Origin: Firmicutes bacterium UBA3871
GTDB lineage: Bacteria > Bacillota > Clostridia > Peptostreptococcales > Anaerovoracaceae
Assembly (NCBI GenBank): GCA_002392265.1
Contig: DGGP01000015.1
Coordinates: 1 to 12,421, forward strand
DNA: 12,421 nucleotides
Reading direction: 5' to 3'
This document shows positions 6,410 through 12,421 of the stretch, in pieces; within the stretch, counting starts at the first letter, position 1; each line of letters opens with the position of its first letter. The position numbers and the translations under genes were made by a program. Below the pieces are notes generated by a model. It did no database searches. It worked only from the letters and a program-made list of their open reading frames with translations, and was not told the origin of the DNA.

Positions 6410-7642
6410 ATGAAAAGTACTGAAAAGCTGGTATCAAAGGCCAGGGAAGAAATCGGAAAGAAAAAGGACATCAGCGATGATGAGGTGAGGGAGCTTTTAA
6501 TCGGACTGAGCTTTGAGATAGCGGAGTACATGCTGCTTTGTGCGGCGGAAAGGGAAAACCTGATAGAGCGTGCTTTCTGCAGTCTCAGGTGCGAATACGG
6601 GCCTCTGCAGCCACTGATTTCGGACAGCAGCATCACAGAAATAATGGTAAACGGCGCGAGTGATGTATATATCGAAAAAAGCGGAAAGATAATGCGTAGT
6701 GAGATGTATTTTGAATCCACAGAGGAGCTTGAGAACATCATACGCAAAATGGCGGCAGGCGTGCGCAGGGAGATTAATGAAATGGTGCCGATAGTCGATG
6801 CGCGTCTTTCGGACGGTTCACGCGTGAACGCTGTGTATAAAAGCATTGCGCTTGGCGGGCCGGTACTGACAATAAGGAAATTCCCGGAAAGGCCGTTTGC
6901 TATGGAGGATTTTTTGAGGCTGGGCACGATTACAGCAGAGGCTGCTGAGTTTCTGCGCGTGCTTGTGGAGGCGGGATACAACATTTTCATCAGCGGTGGG
7001 ACCTCGTCGGGCAAGACTTCTTTTTTGAACGTGCTCTCGGCTTACATTCCGGCAGATGAGCGAGTCATCACAATCGAGGATTCGGCAGAACTGCAGATTC
7101 GTCAAATCCCGAACCTGGTGCGGATGGAGTGTCGCAACGCTAATTCGCAAGGCAAGGGGCAGATTACCATGCGCGACCTCATTAAATCATCACTGCGTAT
7201 GCGTCCGGACCGCATCATAGTCGGAGAAGTGCGCGGCGGCGAGGTTATGGACATGGTCCAAGCTATGAACACCGGCCATGACGGCTCGCTTTGCACGGGG
7301 CATGCCAATTCTGTGGGCGGCATGATGAAGCGGCTTGAGGCAATGTTTTTGCAGGCGGCGGAGCTTCCTGCCGCCTCGGTACGCAGCCAGATTGCTGAGG
7401 GGATAGACATAGTGGTGCACATGGGAAGGCTCTCGGACAAACAGAGAAGAGTGCTGGAAATTGCTGAAGTTTCAAAGACTTTGGCAGGCGGCGAAATAAA
7501 GGTCAATAGCTTGTTTAAATATAAACCGGGTAGTGGCCTGCAGCGTACGGAAAATTCGCTAATGAATACTTCAAAGCTCGAAATGGCAGGACTGATGCTC
7601 CCTGTAGCAGTTAAAGACAGGCTTGAGAAAGAGGGTGCATAA
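6410..7642 (+). CDS. cpaF: CpaF/TadA-type secretion ATPase
   Basis: This 410-residue hexameric cytoplasmic ATPase of the type II/IV secretion superfamily powers assembly of Tad (Flp) pili or related filaments. The N-terminal domain contains the CpaF-typical YGPLQPLISDSSITEIMVNG and DARLSDGSRVNAV segments. The ATPase core has Walker A GGTSSGKTS (Lys202), an Asp box TIEDSAEL (Glu223/Asp224), Walker B RIIVGEVRGGE (Glu273) and the His box TGHDGSLCTGHANS. All catalytic motifs are intact and the length is normal. The tail after about residue 370 is variable. The start follows AGGGGGT (6398-6404). The downstream platform-protein gene begins 3 nt after the stop codon, so the two are surely co-transcribed and probably translationally coupled. 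The TadZ-like gene at 1838 probably belongs to the same machine. Confidence 0.95.
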   Translation: MKSTEKLVSKAREEIGKKKDISDDEVRELLIGLSFEIAEYMLLCAAERENLIERAFCSLRCEYGPLQPLISDSSITEIMVNGASDVYIEKSGKIMRSEMYFESTEELENIIRKMAAGVRREINEMVPIVDARLSDGSRVNAVYKSIALGGPVLTIRKFPERPFAMEDFLRLGTITAEAAEFLRVLVEAGYNIFISGGTSSGKTSFLNVLSAYIPADERVITIEDSAELQIRQIPNLVRMECRNANSQGKGQITMRDLIKSSLRMRPDRIIVGEVRGGEVMDMVQAMNTGHDGSLCTGHANSVGGMMKRLEAMFLQAAELPAASVRSQIAEGIDIVVHMGRLSDKQRRVLEIAEVSKTLAGGEIKVNSLFKYKPGSGLQRTENSLMNTSKLEMAGLMLPVAVKDRLEKEGA

Positions 7643-7645
7643 ATT

Positions 7646-8836
7646 ATGCCTATTGATTACAGAACCTATCAGTTTTCGAAGAGCGAAATAATAAGATGCT
7701 GTGCTTTATGCTTTGCAGGGATGCTGGTGATTGCCGGTTTGTTTTTTGACAGCGTTTGGCCGGGGATTATACTATCCCCGAGCTTGTATTTTTGTCTGCC
7801 GATTTTTGCAAAGATTAAATGCGAAAAGCGGTTAAAGGTGCTTCGAGAGGAATTCGTAGATTTCCTTTACAGTCTGTCATCTTCGGTTGCCACGGGCATG
7901 CACATGGGCGAGGCGATTTCCGAGGCGCGAGACAGCCTTTTGGTAGCCTACAAGGGACATTCCTTGCTGGCTGACGAGCTCACGGAAATGATCAGGAAAA
8001 TGAGCGAGAGCAATGCGGGAGAAAAAGAGCTTCTCTTTGATTTTGCAAAGCGTAGCGGAATTGATGATCTAAAAAGCTTTGTTGAGAGCTATTACATCTG
8101 CCGCGATTCAGGCGGCGATCTGGTGGCAAATGTGAACCGCAGCACACAGGTGATAACGGACAAGCTTTTGATCGAAAAAGACATGAAAACACTTATCTCA
8201 CAAAAGGTATTCGAGGGGAGAATCATTGCAGCGCTACCGCCGTTTATTATACTCTTTTTGCGCATAACCTCGCCCGATTATTTGGCACCGCTTTATGAAA
8301 CGGCGATGGGGCGCATAATAATGCTGGGGGCACTAATGGCCATGGCTTATGCCTTTTATTATTCGGGTAGGCTCTCAAGAGTAGTCTTTTCTGAAGACAT
8401 AGACAGCTGCCAGCCGGAGTTTATGAGTCGGGTGGGGCTGCTGCTTGGCTCGGGCATGGTACTGCAGACGGTGTTTGAACGCATGGCAAGTGAGAGCAGT
8501 CTTTCGGAAAATCTCCTGCAGCGGGATTTTCGAAGGCTCTACGAAGATGCCGCAAGTGAAAACGTGCCGGTAATAGTGAAGCTCAGGGAATATGCCAGGA
8601 CCTCGGGCAGCCGAGAGATGCTCAGGTTTGTCGGAATCCTTGCCGCAAATCTGGACAAGGGCACTGAGCTTACCGAAAAGCTTTCGCGCGAATCGGAGTT
8701 CATGTGGCACTCTGCGAAAAAGCAAATTGAGGAAAAGAGCAAGCTCGCAGAGACAAAAATGGCATTTCCGATGTCGCTGATGCTGGTGGTGCTGATTGTA
8801 ATCACAATCGCGCCGGTTATGATGACGCTGAAATAG
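7646..8836 (+). CDS. Tad inner-membrane platform protein, apparent TadB-TadC fusion
   Basis: The 396-residue protein carries two type II secretion F (T2SSF) domains. The order is: membrane segments 1-2 (about 15-34 and 38-55), T2SSF-1 (about 60-185, with SSSVATGMHMGEAISEAR and CRDSGGDLVANVNRSTQVI), membrane segments 3-4 (about 192-212 and 222-242), T2SSF-2 (about 250-365, with GLLLGSGMVLQTVFERMA and AANLDKGTELTEKLSRES) and a C-terminal segment 5 (about 372-395). In usual Tad loci TadB and TadC are separate proteins of roughly 250-320 residues. Here one continuous frame carries both halves, and segments 3-4 seem to serve as both the end of the TadB part and the start of the TadC part. The platform would anchor the CpaF ATPase and pass pilins into the filament. 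It follows cpaF by 3 nt. No stop codon or frame change separates the halves, so it reads as an intact gene. Confidence 0.85.
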   Translation: MPIDYRTYQFSKSEIIRCCALCFAGMLVIAGLFFDSVWPGIILSPSLYFCLPIFAKIKCEKRLKVLREEFVDFLYSLSSSVATGMHMGEAISEARDSLLVAYKGHSLLADELTEMIRKMSESNAGEKELLFDFAKRSGIDDLKSFVESYYICRDSGGDLVANVNRSTQVITDKLLIEKDMKTLISQKVFEGRIIAALPPFIILFLRITSPDYLAPLYETAMGRIIMLGALMAMAYAFYYSGRLSRVVFSEDIDSCQPEFMSRVGLLLGSGMVLQTVFERMASESSLSENLLQRDFRRLYEDAASENVPVIVKLREYARTSGSREMLRFVGILAANLDKGTELTEKLSRESEFMWHSAKKQIEEKSKLAETKMAFPMSLMLVVLIVITIAPVMMTLK

Positions 8837-8851
8837 GCGTCAGTGCCATGC

Positions 8852-8879
8852 TTGACTTTTACGGGACATGAGATATAAT
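8852..8879 (+). promoter_or_regulatory. Promoter of the B12 uptake locus
   Basis: TTGACT (8852-8857), a 16-nt spacer and a perfect TATAAT (8874-8879) give a predicted transcription start near 8886. This lies directly before the riboswitch-like leader and 15 nt after the stop of the secretion platform gene. It marks a new transcription unit. Confidence 0.75.
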
Positions 8880-8890
8880 TATTAAGTATG

Positions 8891-9000
8891 AATTTCATAG
8901 GCGGAACGGGGTGAGAATCCCCACGAGTAGGTCACTGTGATACCAACGGTTTAGTCAGGTCAGCCAATTTGTAAATCCTGCCATTACCGGGTCGCAAATG
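8891..9000 (+). promoter_or_regulatory. Cobalamin-riboswitch-like aptamer (compact)
   Basis: The leader RNA shows the conserved B12 riboswitch core: GGAAC, then GGGGTGAGAATCCCC (8908-8922), matching the P4 hairpin consensus GGUGAAAAUCC, then GGTCACTGTGATACC (8930-8944), matching the P5 hairpin with its invariant ACTGT-A loop, then AGTCAGGTCAGCC (8953-8965), resembling the B12-box 3' side. A further hairpin closed by ATTTG (8967-8971) and CAAAT (8995-8999) sits where P13 would be. From the predicted start the element is only about 110 nt, so the large peripheral P8-P12 arms of full-length cobalamin riboswitches are absent or minimal, as in compact class II forms. The role of the downstream genes agrees with B12 control. 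A covariance-model search was not possible here, so the exact class is open. Confidence 0.8.
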
Positions 9001-9008
9001 AAAGAATT

Positions 9009-9037
9009 ATCCACGGGCAGAACTCGTGGATTTTTTT
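9009..9037 (+). terminator. Riboswitch expression-platform terminator
   Basis: ATCCACGGG (9009-9017) pairs with CTCGTGGAT (9023-9031), including one G-U pair, around a CAGAA loop and is followed by seven Ts (9031-9037). It lies 9 nt after the aptamer and 53 nt before the start codon, the position expected for ligand-controlled transcription termination. The 3' arm ACTCGTGG (9022-9029) is the exact reverse complement of CCACGAGT (8921-8928) in the aptamer core, giving a ready antiterminator. Confidence 0.85.
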
Positions 9038-9052
9038 ATAATTAACCACAGA

Positions 9053-9071
9053 GACCGTCCCTAATTTGGAC
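9053..9071. repeat. Second copy of the 6308-type motif (possible REP-like remnant)
   Basis: GACCGTCCCTAATTTGGAC (9053-9071) resembles GACCTGTCCCCAAATTGGA at 6308. It contains a small inverted repeat, GTCC (9056-9059) with GGAC (9068-9071). It lies in the leader between the riboswitch terminator and the ribosome binding site. The similarity is short, so a shared origin is tentative. Confidence 0.35.
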
Positions 9072-9089
9072 GAGAGAAAGAGGTAAAAT

Positions 9090-10706
9090 ATGAAAAGACT
9101 GGTCAGCTTGATCTTAATATGCACGCTCGTGATTGCGGGCGCGGTGCCGGTATTCGGACACAGCGCCTTAGATATTTCAAACGCTGTCACGGATACCGCT
9201 AAATACATTTACAGCATATCCGGCGGTGCGGGCGTTTCCGACGTTGGCGGCGAATGGGCGGTCCTCGGACTTGCCAGGAGCGGCTACAGCGTTCCGGACG
9301 AATATTATCAAAACTATTACGCAAATGTTGAATCATATGTAACTGAAAAGCAGGGCGTGCTTCATAAAAGAAAGTACACCGAATATTCAAGAGTGTCACT
9401 TGCACTTACGGCAATCGGCAAGGACCCAAGAAACGTAGGCGGATATAACCTCTTGACACCGCTCGGGGATTTCGATAAAACGGTATGGCAGGGAATCAAC
9501 GGGCCTACATGGGCTCTGATTGCACTCGACAGCGGCAATTATCCGATGCCGGTTAACAGCGAGGCAAAGGTTCAGGCGAGCCGTCAGATGTATGTAGACT
9601 ACATCCTCAGCAGACAGCTTTCGGACGGCGGCTGGTCGCTGACAGGTGGTGGAGATGATGTTACTCCGGGCGATGAGAGATCCGACATCGACATTACGGC
9701 AATGGTAATTCAGGCGCTTGCAAAATATATGGATCAGCCTGCGGTTTCAAAGGCGGTTAACGAAGCGCTCACAACTCTCAGCAAAAGACAGCACGACGAT
9801 GGTGGCTTTGACAGCTGGGGCACGGTAAATTCCGAGAGCTGCGTTCAGGTAGTTGTAGCACTCGGAGAGCTTGGAATCCCTGTTGACGATGCGCGCTTTG
9901 TAAAGAACGGCAAAACAATGATTGACAACCTGCTTACAAACTTTTACATAAAGGGCAGCGGCTTCAAGCACACGGCAGACACAAAAAAGAGCAACGGCAT
10001 GGCGACAGAGCAGGCGTTCTACGGCATGGTTTCCGCAAACAGACAGGTAAACGGACAAAATTCGCTCTATCGCATGAACGACCACATCACCTTCAAGGAT
10101 GCGGAAAAGGACGATACCGTAAAGCCGACTCCAACAAAGGTTGAGGTCACATTCTCAGACATAGATGGAAACAAATATAAAGACGCGATTCTCGAAATGG
10201 CATCCCTAGGCTTCATAAACGGCATGGGCGACGGCAAGTTTGCGCCAAACAGTACCATGACAAGGGCACAGTTTGCGACAATCGTGACCAAGAGCCTCAA
10301 GCTCGATCCGGGCGAAGAGACAACCTTTAAAGATGTTCCGGTTGGCAAGTGGTACACAGGCTACATTGCAACAGCATGCAAGTTTGGCATAGTCAGCGGC
10401 AGAAGCGCGGATGTTTTCGATCCGGAGGGACTTATCACACGCCAGGAGGCTGCTGTAATGGTGGCAAATGCAGCGAAGACTTGCGCCATGAATACGGCAC
10501 TTGACGAAACAGCTGTACGAAACACACTGGCACAGTTCGGCGACTATATGACAATCGCAGGCTGGGCAAAGACTCAGATGGCATTCTGCTATGCAAACGA
10601 TATATATGACCAGAGCGATTTGGACACAAATCCAACCGTAAGGATTACGAGAGGCGAAATCGCTCAGATGCTTTACAACATGCTCACAAAAGCACTTGTA
10701 ATTTAG
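9090..10706 (+). CDS. Surface protein: transcobalamin-like alpha/alpha barrel plus three SLH domains
   Basis: The 538-residue exported protein has a signal peptide (1 to about 23, hydrophobic core LVSLILICTLVIAGAV, cleavage near VFG). Residues of about 25-345 form helical-pair repeats of the squalene-cyclase/prenyltransferase fold, with QLSDGGWSL (from Gln176), QHDDGGFDSWG (from Gln234) and helices such as DIDITAMVIQALAKY and GPTWALIALDSG. This fold also forms the N-terminal domain of intrinsic factor and transcobalamin. No cyclase DxDD-type acid motif or prenyltransferase zinc site is apparent, so a binding role is more likely than catalysis. Three SLH domains follow (about 355-403, 413-460 and 485-533), which would attach the protein to cell-wall polymers. 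The ribosome binding site is AAAGAGG (9077-9083). It is the first gene after the B12-riboswitch-like leader and is followed by the DUF4430 gene, which supplies the missing beta domain. Domain calls are secure; corrinoid binding is inferred from context. Confidence 0.88.
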   Translation: MKRLVSLILICTLVIAGAVPVFGHSALDISNAVTDTAKYIYSISGGAGVSDVGGEWAVLGLARSGYSVPDEYYQNYYANVESYVTEKQGVLHKRKYTEYSRVSLALTAIGKDPRNVGGYNLLTPLGDFDKTVWQGINGPTWALIALDSGNYPMPVNSEAKVQASRQMYVDYILSRQLSDGGWSLTGGGDDVTPGDERSDIDITAMVIQALAKYMDQPAVSKAVNEALTTLSKRQHDDGGFDSWGTVNSESCVQVVVALGELGIPVDDARFVKNGKTMIDNLLTNFYIKGSGFKHTADTKKSNGMATEQAFYGMVSANRQVNGQNSLYRMNDHITFKDAEKDDTVKPTPTKVEVTFSDIDGNKYKDAILEMASLGFINGMGDGKFAPNSTMTRAQFATIVTKSLKLDPGEETTFKDVPVGKWYTGYIATACKFGIVSGRSADVFDPEGLITRQEAAVMVANAAKTCAMNTALDETAVRNTLAQFGDYMTIAGWAKTQMAFCYANDIYDQSDLDTNPTVRITRGEIAQMLYNMLTKALVI

Positions 10707-10716
10707 GAAAATGAAA

Positions 10717-11514
10717 ATGAACAAAAAGATTAAAATAGCAATAGGAATAGTTATCGTACTGGCGGTGCTTGCCTTTGCCTTTTGGTACGGAGGCGGCGCA
10801 CCGGGGATGCAGGGCTGGAATATAGGTGATGATTCCGCTGTGTCTGTAAGCGACAGCGCAGTAGACACCGGCGCGGATGCGGGCGCAGGCACGGACGAAA
10901 CAACGAACGACGCGATTTCGGACGGGGCGATTTCAGGCGATGTTCAAGGCGAAGCTGAAGGCAGCACAGAAGGCGGCACAGACAGCGCTTCCGGCATGAT
11001 AATCGACCCGAAAACCGGCAAGGACAAATACCTGACCGACCCTGTTCCGGAGGGCAAGCCTATCCCGGTGGAACCTCAGGATGTGACTGTGGGGACCACA
11101 CAGTACACCTGCACACTTTCGATTTCATGCGCGACCATTTTAGATCATATGGACTGGCTCGATCCGGAAAAGGTCGACCTCGTTCCCGAGGATGGCTGGA
11201 TTTTGAAGGCTACAAAGGTAAAATTCTATGAGGGTGAGAGCGTATTCAACGTGCTGCAGCGCACCTGCAAGCAGAATAAAATCCACATGGAATTCTCGGA
11301 TACGCCGATGTACAATTCGGCATATATCGAGGGAATTCATAACCTTTACGAGTTTGACTGCGGACAGCTCTCGGGCTGGATGTATTCGGTTAACGGATGG
11401 TTTCCTAACTACGGCTGCTCTCGCTATCAGTTAAAGGACGGAGACATCATAAAGTGGGTTTACACATGCGACCTCGGATACGATGTGGGCGGAGGCTATG
11501 CTGTCGGAGAATAG
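10717..11514 (+). CDS. Membrane-tethered DUF4430 (transcobalamin beta-domain-like) protein
   Basis: The 265-residue protein has one N-terminal membrane segment (about 5-23), no lipobox cysteine, and a long flexible linker (about 28-115) rich in Asp, Glu, Gly, Ser and Thr with no Lys or Arg before Lys99. The DUF4430 domain (about 129-262) follows, with GESVFNVLQRTCK, SAYIEGIHNLYEFDCG, LSGWMYSVNGWFPNYGCSRY and LKDGDIIKWVYTCDLG. This domain is the homologue of the C-terminal beta domain of intrinsic factor and transcobalamin. Six Cys in the domain could form disulfides outside the cell. The start at 10717 is preferred because AGGA (10705-10708) is 8 nt upstream; ATG 10711 is too close to it. The gene starts about 10 nt after the alpha/alpha-barrel gene and the ecfT start follows its stop by 3 nt, so all are one operon. 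The likely role is to hold corrinoid at the membrane together with the barrel protein; this is inference. Confidence 0.88.
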   Translation: MNKKIKIAIGIVIVLAVLAFAFWYGGGAPGMQGWNIGDDSAVSVSDSAVDTGADAGAGTDETTNDAISDGAISGDVQGEAEGSTEGGTDSASGMIIDPKTGKDKYLTDPVPEGKPIPVEPQDVTVGTTQYTCTLSISCATILDHMDWLDPEKVDLVPEDGWILKATKVKFYEGESVFNVLQRTCKQNKIHMEFSDTPMYNSAYIEGIHNLYEFDCGQLSGWMYSVNGWFPNYGCSRYQLKDGDIIKWVYTCDLGYDVGGGYAVGE

Positions 11515-11517
11515 GCA

Positions 11518-12414
11518 ATGATAAACAGAGATACTTTTTCTTCATATCATCCAATTATAAATTTCCTGTATTTTGCGCTGGTATTACTTTTTACAATGTG
11601 CTTTATGCACCCGGTGGCTCTGGTATTGTCACTTTTTTCGGCGCTTATCTACAGTATTATGCTGCGCGGCCGAAAGGCCGTGCGGTTTTCGCTTGTCTAT
11701 ATGCTGCCGATGGCGATTTTTATCATCATCCTAAATCCGGCATTCACGCATGAAGGCGTGACGATACTTACTTATCTGCCGAGCGGAAACCCGCTGACCT
11801 TGGAAAGTATAGCCTACGGAGCTGCGGCTGCGACCATGCTTACCGCAATGCTTGTCTGGTTCACGTGCTTTAATGAAGTCATTACGACGGATAAATTTGT
11901 CTATCTTTTCGGGCGCATCATTCCGGCGCTATCGCTGGTGCTGTCTATGGCTCTCAGATTCGTTCCGAGATTCACAGCTCAGATAAAGATTGTCAGCGAG
12001 GCTCAAAAGTGTATCGGCAGGGACGTGTCGACGGGCAGCGTCCTGCAGCGGCTGAGGCGCGCTGTAACCGTCATGTCAATCATGATTACATGGAGCCTTG
12101 AAAATGCGATAGAGACAGCTGATTCGATGAAGTGCAGGGGCTACGGTCTCCCCGGCAGGTCGGCTTTTTCTATATACCGATTTGACGACAGGGACAAAGC
12201 GGCACTTTTGTGGCTCTTCTTTTGCGGCGGATATATCATGTCCGGCTGGATTTGTAAAGCGTTTTATTTTAACTATTATCCTATGATGCGCGGGACGCAG
12301 ACAGGCGCAATGAGCCTAAGCTTTGAGCTTGTATATCTGGCGCTTTGCCTGACACCCGTTATTGTAAACTTGAGGGAGGACTATGCATGGAAACGTTTAG
12401 CATCCATGGATTGA
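11518..12414 (+). CDS. ecfT: ECF transporter transmembrane subunit (EcfT/CbiQ family)
   Basis: The 298-residue polytopic membrane protein is the coupling subunit of an energy-coupling-factor vitamin importer, linking the substrate-binding S component to the two ATPases. It has several hydrophobic segments (about 12-48, 58-75, 98-125, 140-160, 235-255 and 270-290) and the two cytoplasmic coupling motifs of the family: EAQKCIGRD (about 161-169) and TADSMKCRGYGLPGR (about 201-215), the latter matching the classic ADAMKARGYG with Cys in place of Ala. The start ATG 11518 lies 3 nt after the DUF4430 stop, with CGGAGA as ribosome binding site inside the upstream gene. Its end overlaps the start of the ATPase gene by 28 nt. 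Its location behind a B12-riboswitch-like leader and the surface proteins points to cobalamin or another corrinoid as substrate, although the S component that sets specificity is not in the window. Confidence 0.9.
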   Translation: MINRDTFSSYHPIINFLYFALVLLFTMCFMHPVALVLSLFSALIYSIMLRGRKAVRFSLVYMLPMAIFIIILNPAFTHEGVTILTYLPSGNPLTLESIAYGAAAATMLTAMLVWFTCFNEVITTDKFVYLFGRIIPALSLVLSMALRFVPRFTAQIKIVSEAQKCIGRDVSTGSVLQRLRRAVTVMSIMITWSLENAIETADSMKCRGYGLPGRSAFSIYRFDDRDKAALLWLFFCGGYIMSGWICKAFYFNYYPMMRGTQTGAMSLSFELVYLALCLTPVIVNLREDYAWKRLASMD

Positions 12415-12421
12415 CATTTGC
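12387..12421 (+). CDS. ecfA: ECF transporter ATP-binding subunit, first codons only (cut by window end)
   Basis: ATG 12387 follows GAGGGAGGA (12372-12380) at good spacing and opens METFSIHGLTF, which resembles the start of EcfA/CbiO ABC ATPases (short strand, then LTFxYP). It overlaps the end of ecfT by 28 nt in another frame, as is common in ECF operons. The alternative ATG at 12383 hits a stop after five codons. Only about 11 codons are visible, so the call rests on context and this short match. Confidence 0.6.
   Translation, partial: METFSIHGLTF

Follow-up and report, generated by a model that had tools for sequence, protein, structure and literature searches.

Can the two halves of a vitamin B12 carrier stand on separate chains at the surface of a bacterium? 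The question is raised by an operon at the end of a 12,421-nucleotide stretch of DNA from Firmicutes bacterium UBA3871 (contig DGGP01000015.1; hereafter the window), which is an entire contig, G000:C123, of a host assembly rated 70% complete and 1.85% contaminated. From position 8852 onward the window holds an apparent single transcription unit, consisting of a promoter, a leader, a gene for a secreted alpha-barrel protein (A), a gene for a membrane-anchored DUF4430 protein (B), ecfT of an energy-coupling factor (ECF) importer, and the start of ecfA. An initial annotation had read this unit as a split B12 capture system, and library scans together with the sequence located every part that it named. 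We are very confident that the locus serves corrinoid uptake, and we give a probability of about 0.6 to the reading that A and B form a joint corrinoid clamp with its halves on separate chains. The initial annotation is thereby supported overall, and its reading is backed directly by the gene content, order and conservation, the riboswitch association, the predicted beta fold and a CbrT-type S component; the corrinoid site common to A and B is what we infer from these. The features of the operon are as follows:

8852-8879, plus strand: sigma-70-like promoter of the operon (TTGACT-16-TATAAT, 11 of 12 consensus matches)
8899-8968, plus strand: cobalamin riboswitch aptamer core, short form (covariance model and core blocks; a sub-cut-off Rfam AdoCbl alignment covers 8880-9011)
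9009-9038, plus strand: intrinsic terminator, the likely riboswitch expression platform (9-pair stem, hairpin at 9009-9031, and T run)
9090-10706, plus strand: A, secreted alpha/alpha-barrel protein with S-layer homology (SLH) domains, 538 residues (barrel about 9162-10094, SLH about 10137-10703)
10711-11514, plus strand: B, membrane-anchored DUF4430 (transcobalamin beta-like) protein (folded domain about 11065-11490, acidic linker about 10813-11085)
11518-12414, plus strand: ecfT, ECF importer transmembrane component (PF02361, CbiQ, E 3.1e-6; same position in relatives)
12387-12421, plus strand: first codons of ecfA (METFSIHGLTF), a gene cut by the contig end and likely continued on host contig G000:C144 as EcfA-EcfA'-CbrT

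Conservation, importer and leader

The intergenic gaps measure 4 bases between A and B and 3 bases between B and ecfT, and the ecfA start at 12387 overlaps ecfT with an offset identical to that in the related locus L038. We compared two sets of loci. The A-first set holds the best 80 loci of at least 568 confirmed A relatives in a genome scan, chosen by their likeness to A, which favours this operon; their organisms are, as we take it, Bacillota and mostly Clostridia. The relatives of A include Flavonifractor plautii, Sporobacter termitidis, Cellulosilyticum ruminicola, Fusibacter paucivorans, two Paenibacillus and Candidatus Formimonas. Where the contig was long enough, B followed A within 3.5 kb in 64 of 67 loci (exceptions L075, L083 and L101), and the EcfT gene (T), the ATPase and CbrT lay downstream in 49/57, 45/53 and 39/47, respectively; the importer exceptions are L073, L075, L078, L101, L104, L139, L147 and L149. 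B, T, EcfAA' and CbrT all came after A in 38 of the 47 loci with 9 kb downstream, and an additional B-type domain lay upstream of A on the same strand in 35/50. The B-first set comprises 29 loci from related genomes, several of them on cut contigs, with a same-strand A in 21, T in 20 and CbrT in 16; B stands after T in L043 and before A in L063 and L065.

Directly after ecfT, the relatives encode a duplicated ECF ATPase, which in many cases is fused to the S component and in the others is followed by a separate S gene; TIGR04520 scored above cut-off in the two duplicated ATPases scanned. An EcfT and two ECF ATPases are thus accounted for by ecfT in the window, the duplicated ATPase in relatives and a cut copy on host contig C144. 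The S component of the relatives matched 6FNP chain A best among PDB sequences (E 1.3e-11 with one sequence, 3.1e-15 with a seven-sequence profile), and the next-best matches had E 0.024 and 0.027. 6FNP is the structure of ECF-CbrT, which has been shown to transport cobalamin and cobinamide (PMC5997447). The EcfA-CbrT frame of C144 runs off the contig end, is 65% identical to the L038 protein from residue 257 and has 6FNP as its only PDB match at E 1 (E 7.5e-8), while a cut cobalamin riboswitch lies at the other end of the contig. C144 is likely the continuation of C123 because this layout parallels that of G001, from the same genus, in which a riboswitch follows CbrT and is followed in turn by a giant A+B+SLH gene. 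The CbrT-type S component predicted downstream was therefore found outside the window, both in relatives and on C144.

The leader carries the cobalamin core GGTGAGAATCC...CACTGTGA...AGTCAGG at 8910-8959, a pattern with one match in the window and none in 200 dinucleotide shuffles; a looser core pattern likewise matched once, with none in 300 shuffles. An initial riboswitch regular expression matched the window only, and Rfam and covariance models were used in its place. A covariance model from 16 other cobalamin leaders, with the window excluded, gave 8899-8968 as its sole window match (E up to 10) at 20.3 bits and E 6e-4, where E-values are rough and the choice of 3 of the 16 leaders with an earlier, window-containing model introduces a mild circularity. 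The element is a short form, resembling the Rfam-positive one before A in L039 (12410-12548, 68.8 bits). The leader RNA folds with a z-score of -1.49 (18 of 200 shuffles were equally good), and the RNAalifold structures of our models R1 and R2 contain only 13 and 11 pairs and differ from the known cobalamin fold; both are mainly sequence models. The operon head carries the conserved core blocks of the aptamer and a likely expression platform, and the position of the aptamer between promoter and terminator suggests attenuation control. The B12-riboswitch-like leader is thus borne out by the core blocks, the window-free model and the terminator, although it scores below the Rfam gathering threshold.

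The A-B pair also co-occurs with cobalamin riboswitches in relatives, as the initial annotation had anticipated. Of the 29 B-first loci, 10 (L038, L039, L041, L043, L045, L055, L056, L057, L062 and L065) have a riboswitch at the Rfam gathering score immediately ahead of a gene that encodes A or B. In the 80 A-first loci, model R1 (built from the window together with leaders of relatives, none of them apparently among the 80) gave 64 matches at E up to 0.1, 62 of them on the operon strand, and 48 loci had a match upstream of A; the next gene within 900 bases of the 62 matches bore A in 19 cases, B in 17 and neither in 26.

Proteins A and B

Protein A has a signal-like N terminus and an SLH match in Pfam (E 1.5e-22), and its SLH repeats sit at one end of the secreted chain, as in SLH cell-wall proteins. 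Three SLH domains had been proposed; Pfam counts two stretches, and the third is seen by eye only. SLH domains occur in the same frame in 72 of the 80 A orthologues. The barrel is nearest to terpene cyclases in both predicted fold and sequence, and the alpha profile run against PDB sequences led to squalene-hopene cyclases. A catalytic terpene-cyclase function was considered, and the residues invariant in a 23-row alignment (W56, R101, N137, A142, L143, A145, G180, D201, T203, E249, Q253 and Q308) permit no conclusion on activity.

Protein B matches DUF4430 at E 3.7e-19 in Pfam and begins with a hydrophobic segment; its residues 35-125 include 20 Asp/Glu and 4 Lys/Arg, in agreement with the proposed membrane anchor and acidic linker of about 90 residues. 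Structure comparison gave the predicted beta domain the fold of the animal carrier beta domains, as had been claimed. The carriers were reached in this way only, and not by the alpha or beta sequence profiles; the beta profile found nothing relevant among PDB sequences (one chance match, E 1.3). In hhalign, the beta profile scored 19.8 against two transcobalamin fragments (best of 60 shuffles 16.7; 19 columns; probability 8.5%) and the alpha profile 21.9 against three (best of 60 shuffles 17.7; probability 2.8%; register uncertain). These scores exceed those of the shuffles and are too weak to place ligand residues, and we therefore make no residue claim for the carrier site. In fish carrier-like proteins, DUF4430 is the C-terminal domain (PMC4350170). 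At least 7998 homologues of B were scored. In L162 (285-2998), a beta-domain frame that has an SLH match of its own lies directly upstream of an A-SLH protein, and the beta half there also looks wall-anchored.

Proposed joint binding by A and B

Among 99 genomes, A (E 1e-15) occurs in 40, B (E 1e-3) in 54 and both in 38, so that B is present in 38 of the 40 genomes with A and in 16 of the 59 without it (Fisher p 4e-12), an association that comes partly from fused genes and is drawn from incomplete genomes with different thresholds for A and B. Within the host genus and family, B is found in 31/31 genomes with A and in 14/29 others. The two domains, which are separate genes in the window, share one secreted chain in some relatives and in a protein of host contig C14. 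Twenty-nine A-then-B neighbours lie in one frame, with linkers of 26 to 826 residues; seven of the linkers measure 55 residues or less, one of them with a barrel fragment only. Several of the fused chains lie behind cobalamin riboswitches. The count covers the A-then-B order, and B-then-A neighbours also occur (L068, L091). L160 (2676-5717) encodes a 903-residue B-A-B-SLH protein behind a cobalamin riboswitch, its first beta domain recognised by eye and its second, with the barrel, by profile; the importer operon of the same genome has B without A.

The distances of the parts were compared as well. Across the 50 loci with all five parts, the partial distance correlation between A and B, given the importer parts T, U and C, was 0.505, and none of 500 permutations was as high, in a test that ignores shared ancestry and for neighbouring genes of a surface system, which may share rates. 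The other values were 0.065 for A-T, -0.033 for A-C, 0.214 for A-U, 0.343 for B-T, 0.215 for B-C and -0.250 for B-U, and within the importer 0.543 for the known partners T-U, 0.369 for U-C and 0.240 for T-C. When the alpha and beta domains of transcobalamin are expressed separately, they come together only if cobalamin is added (PMC5599065), and release of B12 from the animal carriers requires prior proteolysis (PMC11107200).

If A and B work as a clamp, low intracellular cobalamin would lead to read-through of the leader, and the cell would make A, B and an ECF importer whose S component is of the CbrT type. A would be an alpha/alpha barrel fixed in the cell wall through its SLH domains, and B a beta domain of transcobalamin type, held to the membrane by a long acidic tether. 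Corrinoid bound by one half would recruit the other half, from wall to membrane. The clamp could reopen because its halves are not covalently linked, and would then hand the corrinoid on to CbrT, with no need for the proteolysis on which the animal carriers depend; the tether and gene position of B point to such a hand-off.

The reservations given with the two statistics count against this reading, as do several further results. G001 has B at a separate locus (L037), and L042, L055, L056, L060 and L061 have no A or CbrT near B; L042 and L061 come from genomes that carry A elsewhere, whereas no A was found at E 1e-15 in the genomes of L055, L056 and L060. In the window, no Rfam family reached its gathering score, RF00174 had no match, and the AdoCbl family RF01482 gave, at a relaxed threshold, 22.8 bits (E 0.05, 8880-9011), where the cut-off is 50. 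The window A had no match at E 1 to PF01122, the family of eukaryotic cobalamin-binding alpha domains, and taken by itself it shows no visible homology to the alpha domain of vertebrates. That homology rests on relatives, namely L162, an A orthologue (E 0.0056), L160 (1.6e-4) and L161 (6.5e-5), all below the 25-bit cut-off in protein scans; L160 had no match among PDB sequences. At E 1, a search of 21 genomes gave, besides G004, four weak PF01122 matches (E 0.03-0.28 in G063, G064, G007 and G061, three with internal stops), and the family also matched a Bacillus subtilis control, which cautions against over-reading it. The initial annotation had called the homology of both domains established, which is too strong for the alpha barrel. 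Because PF01122 does not recognise the window alpha domain and the two domains occupy separate chains, we describe the system as working like transcobalamin and not as a member of that family.

A relay without a clamp, in which A is a wall reservoir and B an accessory subunit feeding CbrT, each binding corrinoid alone and never one common ligand, is the strongest rival and in our judgment unlikely. It would account for L050, in which B adjoins the importer without A (B-T-EcfAA'-CbrT), and it agrees with the crystallisation of the isolated human transcobalamin beta domain with cyanocobalamin (5np4; PMC5599065) and with a Lacticaseibacillus protein annotated as "Additional lipoprotein component of putative cobalamin ECF transporter" (PMC9963975). 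It does not lead one to expect B so regularly after A, fused A-B chains, or an A-B partial correlation far above those of A-T and A-C. More doubtful still is a wall enzyme or scaffold, in which A, a terpene-cyclase- or glycosidase-like toroid, binds no corrinoid and, for example, places B or frees corrinoid from polymers; the nearness of A to terpene cyclases suits this, but the fusions to B and the riboswitch association speak for a corrinoid role, and in 99 genomes all six PF01122 matches at E 0.01 were A-type domains. That the importer and surface proteins serve a non-corrinoid ligand is very improbable. The Pfam (ECF-riboflavin/ECF_trnsprt) and NCBIfam labels of the S component, which are of riboflavin/folate type only, with all NCBIfam matches below cut-off, would suit it; against it, no other solved S component comes within about nine orders of magnitude of CbrT in E-value, cobalamin riboswitches precede the operons and the beta fold is that of B12 carriers.

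Other loci, known systems and significance

The host genome has four RF00174 matches, three of them above cut-off. A riboswitch on C14 precedes a 1417-residue B-A-B-SLH protein, and one on C90 precedes CbiK and Peripla_BP_2/FecCD genes. On C83, a sub-cut-off match (26.8 bits; L069, 2473-4860) stands before a two-gene unit, whose first protein (653 residues) has no Pfam match and whose second (1357 residues) matches the B profile and no Pfam family. The C150 riboswitch (L067, 3-1402) lies ahead of a 390-residue protein fragment with a GLUG motif, for which we know of no B12 link. Synthesis or remodelling of corrinoids by the host is also possible, given a cobQ match above cut-off, and the genome has B12-binding-domain proteins (three matches). 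Elsewhere, giant proteins with at least six A-type barrel matches in series follow cobalamin riboswitch matches in L111 (2665-7974) and L161 (3524-15283), the latter additionally carrying two beta domains and SLH. In Candidatus Formimonas warabiya (L088, 4582-7205), an R1 match (71.6 bits) precedes a 737-residue fusion of NifH-like and nitrogenase-component-1-like parts. The window genes before 8836 are those of other systems, with members of the T2SSE and T2SSF families, an antiporter, a histidine kinase and a peroxiredoxin; the adjoining T2SSE- and T2SSF-family genes at 6410-8836 presumably form part of a Tad-like pilus cluster, and a 339-residue protein at 1793-2812 has no Pfam match.

Vertebrate transcobalamin, intrinsic factor and haptocorrin have a beta domain of the same fold as B, whereas the present system is bacterial, lies beside an importer, has two chains with different anchors and has an alpha domain that is only distantly related. 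ECF-CbrT of Lactobacillus delbrueckii (PMC5997447) shares the S component family, EcfT and two EcfA; here EcfA is duplicated in one chain and often fused to S, and the importer belongs to a dedicated operon with two surface proteins and a riboswitch, unlike the L. delbrueckii cluster nrdJ-cbrS-cbrT-pduO. CbrV-CbrU-CbrT of L. plantarum MF1298 (PMC6722938) is likewise a cobalamin ECF importer, and for L. rhamnosus a lipoprotein assigned to a putative cobalamin ECF importer is listed, as is, in a separate entry, a DUF4430 protein next to rtpR (PMC9963975); the excerpts of these two papers describe no alpha barrel, SLH protein or carrier-like pairing. BtuG and BtuH of Bacteroides (PMC6143338, PMC8941943) also capture B12 at the surface ahead of an importer, but BtuG, a lipoprotein, acts together with BtuB in the outer membrane, and its gene is described as exclusive to Bacteroidetes (PMC6143338). 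The 97-residue structure 3U7Z (RUMGNA_00854 of Ruminococcus gnavus) stands alone and was deposited as a putative metal-binding protein. Our searches of the open-licence PMC literature turned up no account of the A-B pair. The system is widespread among relatives and looks like a bacterial B12-catching device undescribed within the literature searched.

Surface B12 capture has been worked out in Bacteroides (PMC6143338).

For the Bacillota, with a thick wall and without an outer membrane, we know of no worked-out account of corrinoid capture. The operon offers a testable candidate in named strains, namely Flavonifractor plautii ATCC 29863, Sporobacter termitidis DSM 10068, Fusibacter paucivorans DSM 12116, Cellulosilyticum ruminicola JCM 14822 and two Paenibacillus, and it would give a function to DUF4430, a domain of unknown function. 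The one-chain L160 protein, with barrel, beta domain, SLH and a sub-threshold match to the vertebrate cobalamin-binding family, is a good candidate for structure work. The system may also be a relative or source of the human B12 carriers. We put forward tentatively, at somewhat less than even odds, that the animal carriers have an older bacterial counterpart, a Bacillota surface clamp with one-chain and split forms, in which corrinoid-induced joining would move B12 across the wall and splitting would make release reversible, and from which the one-chain carriers of vertebrates would derive as a form that releases B12 by proteolysis.
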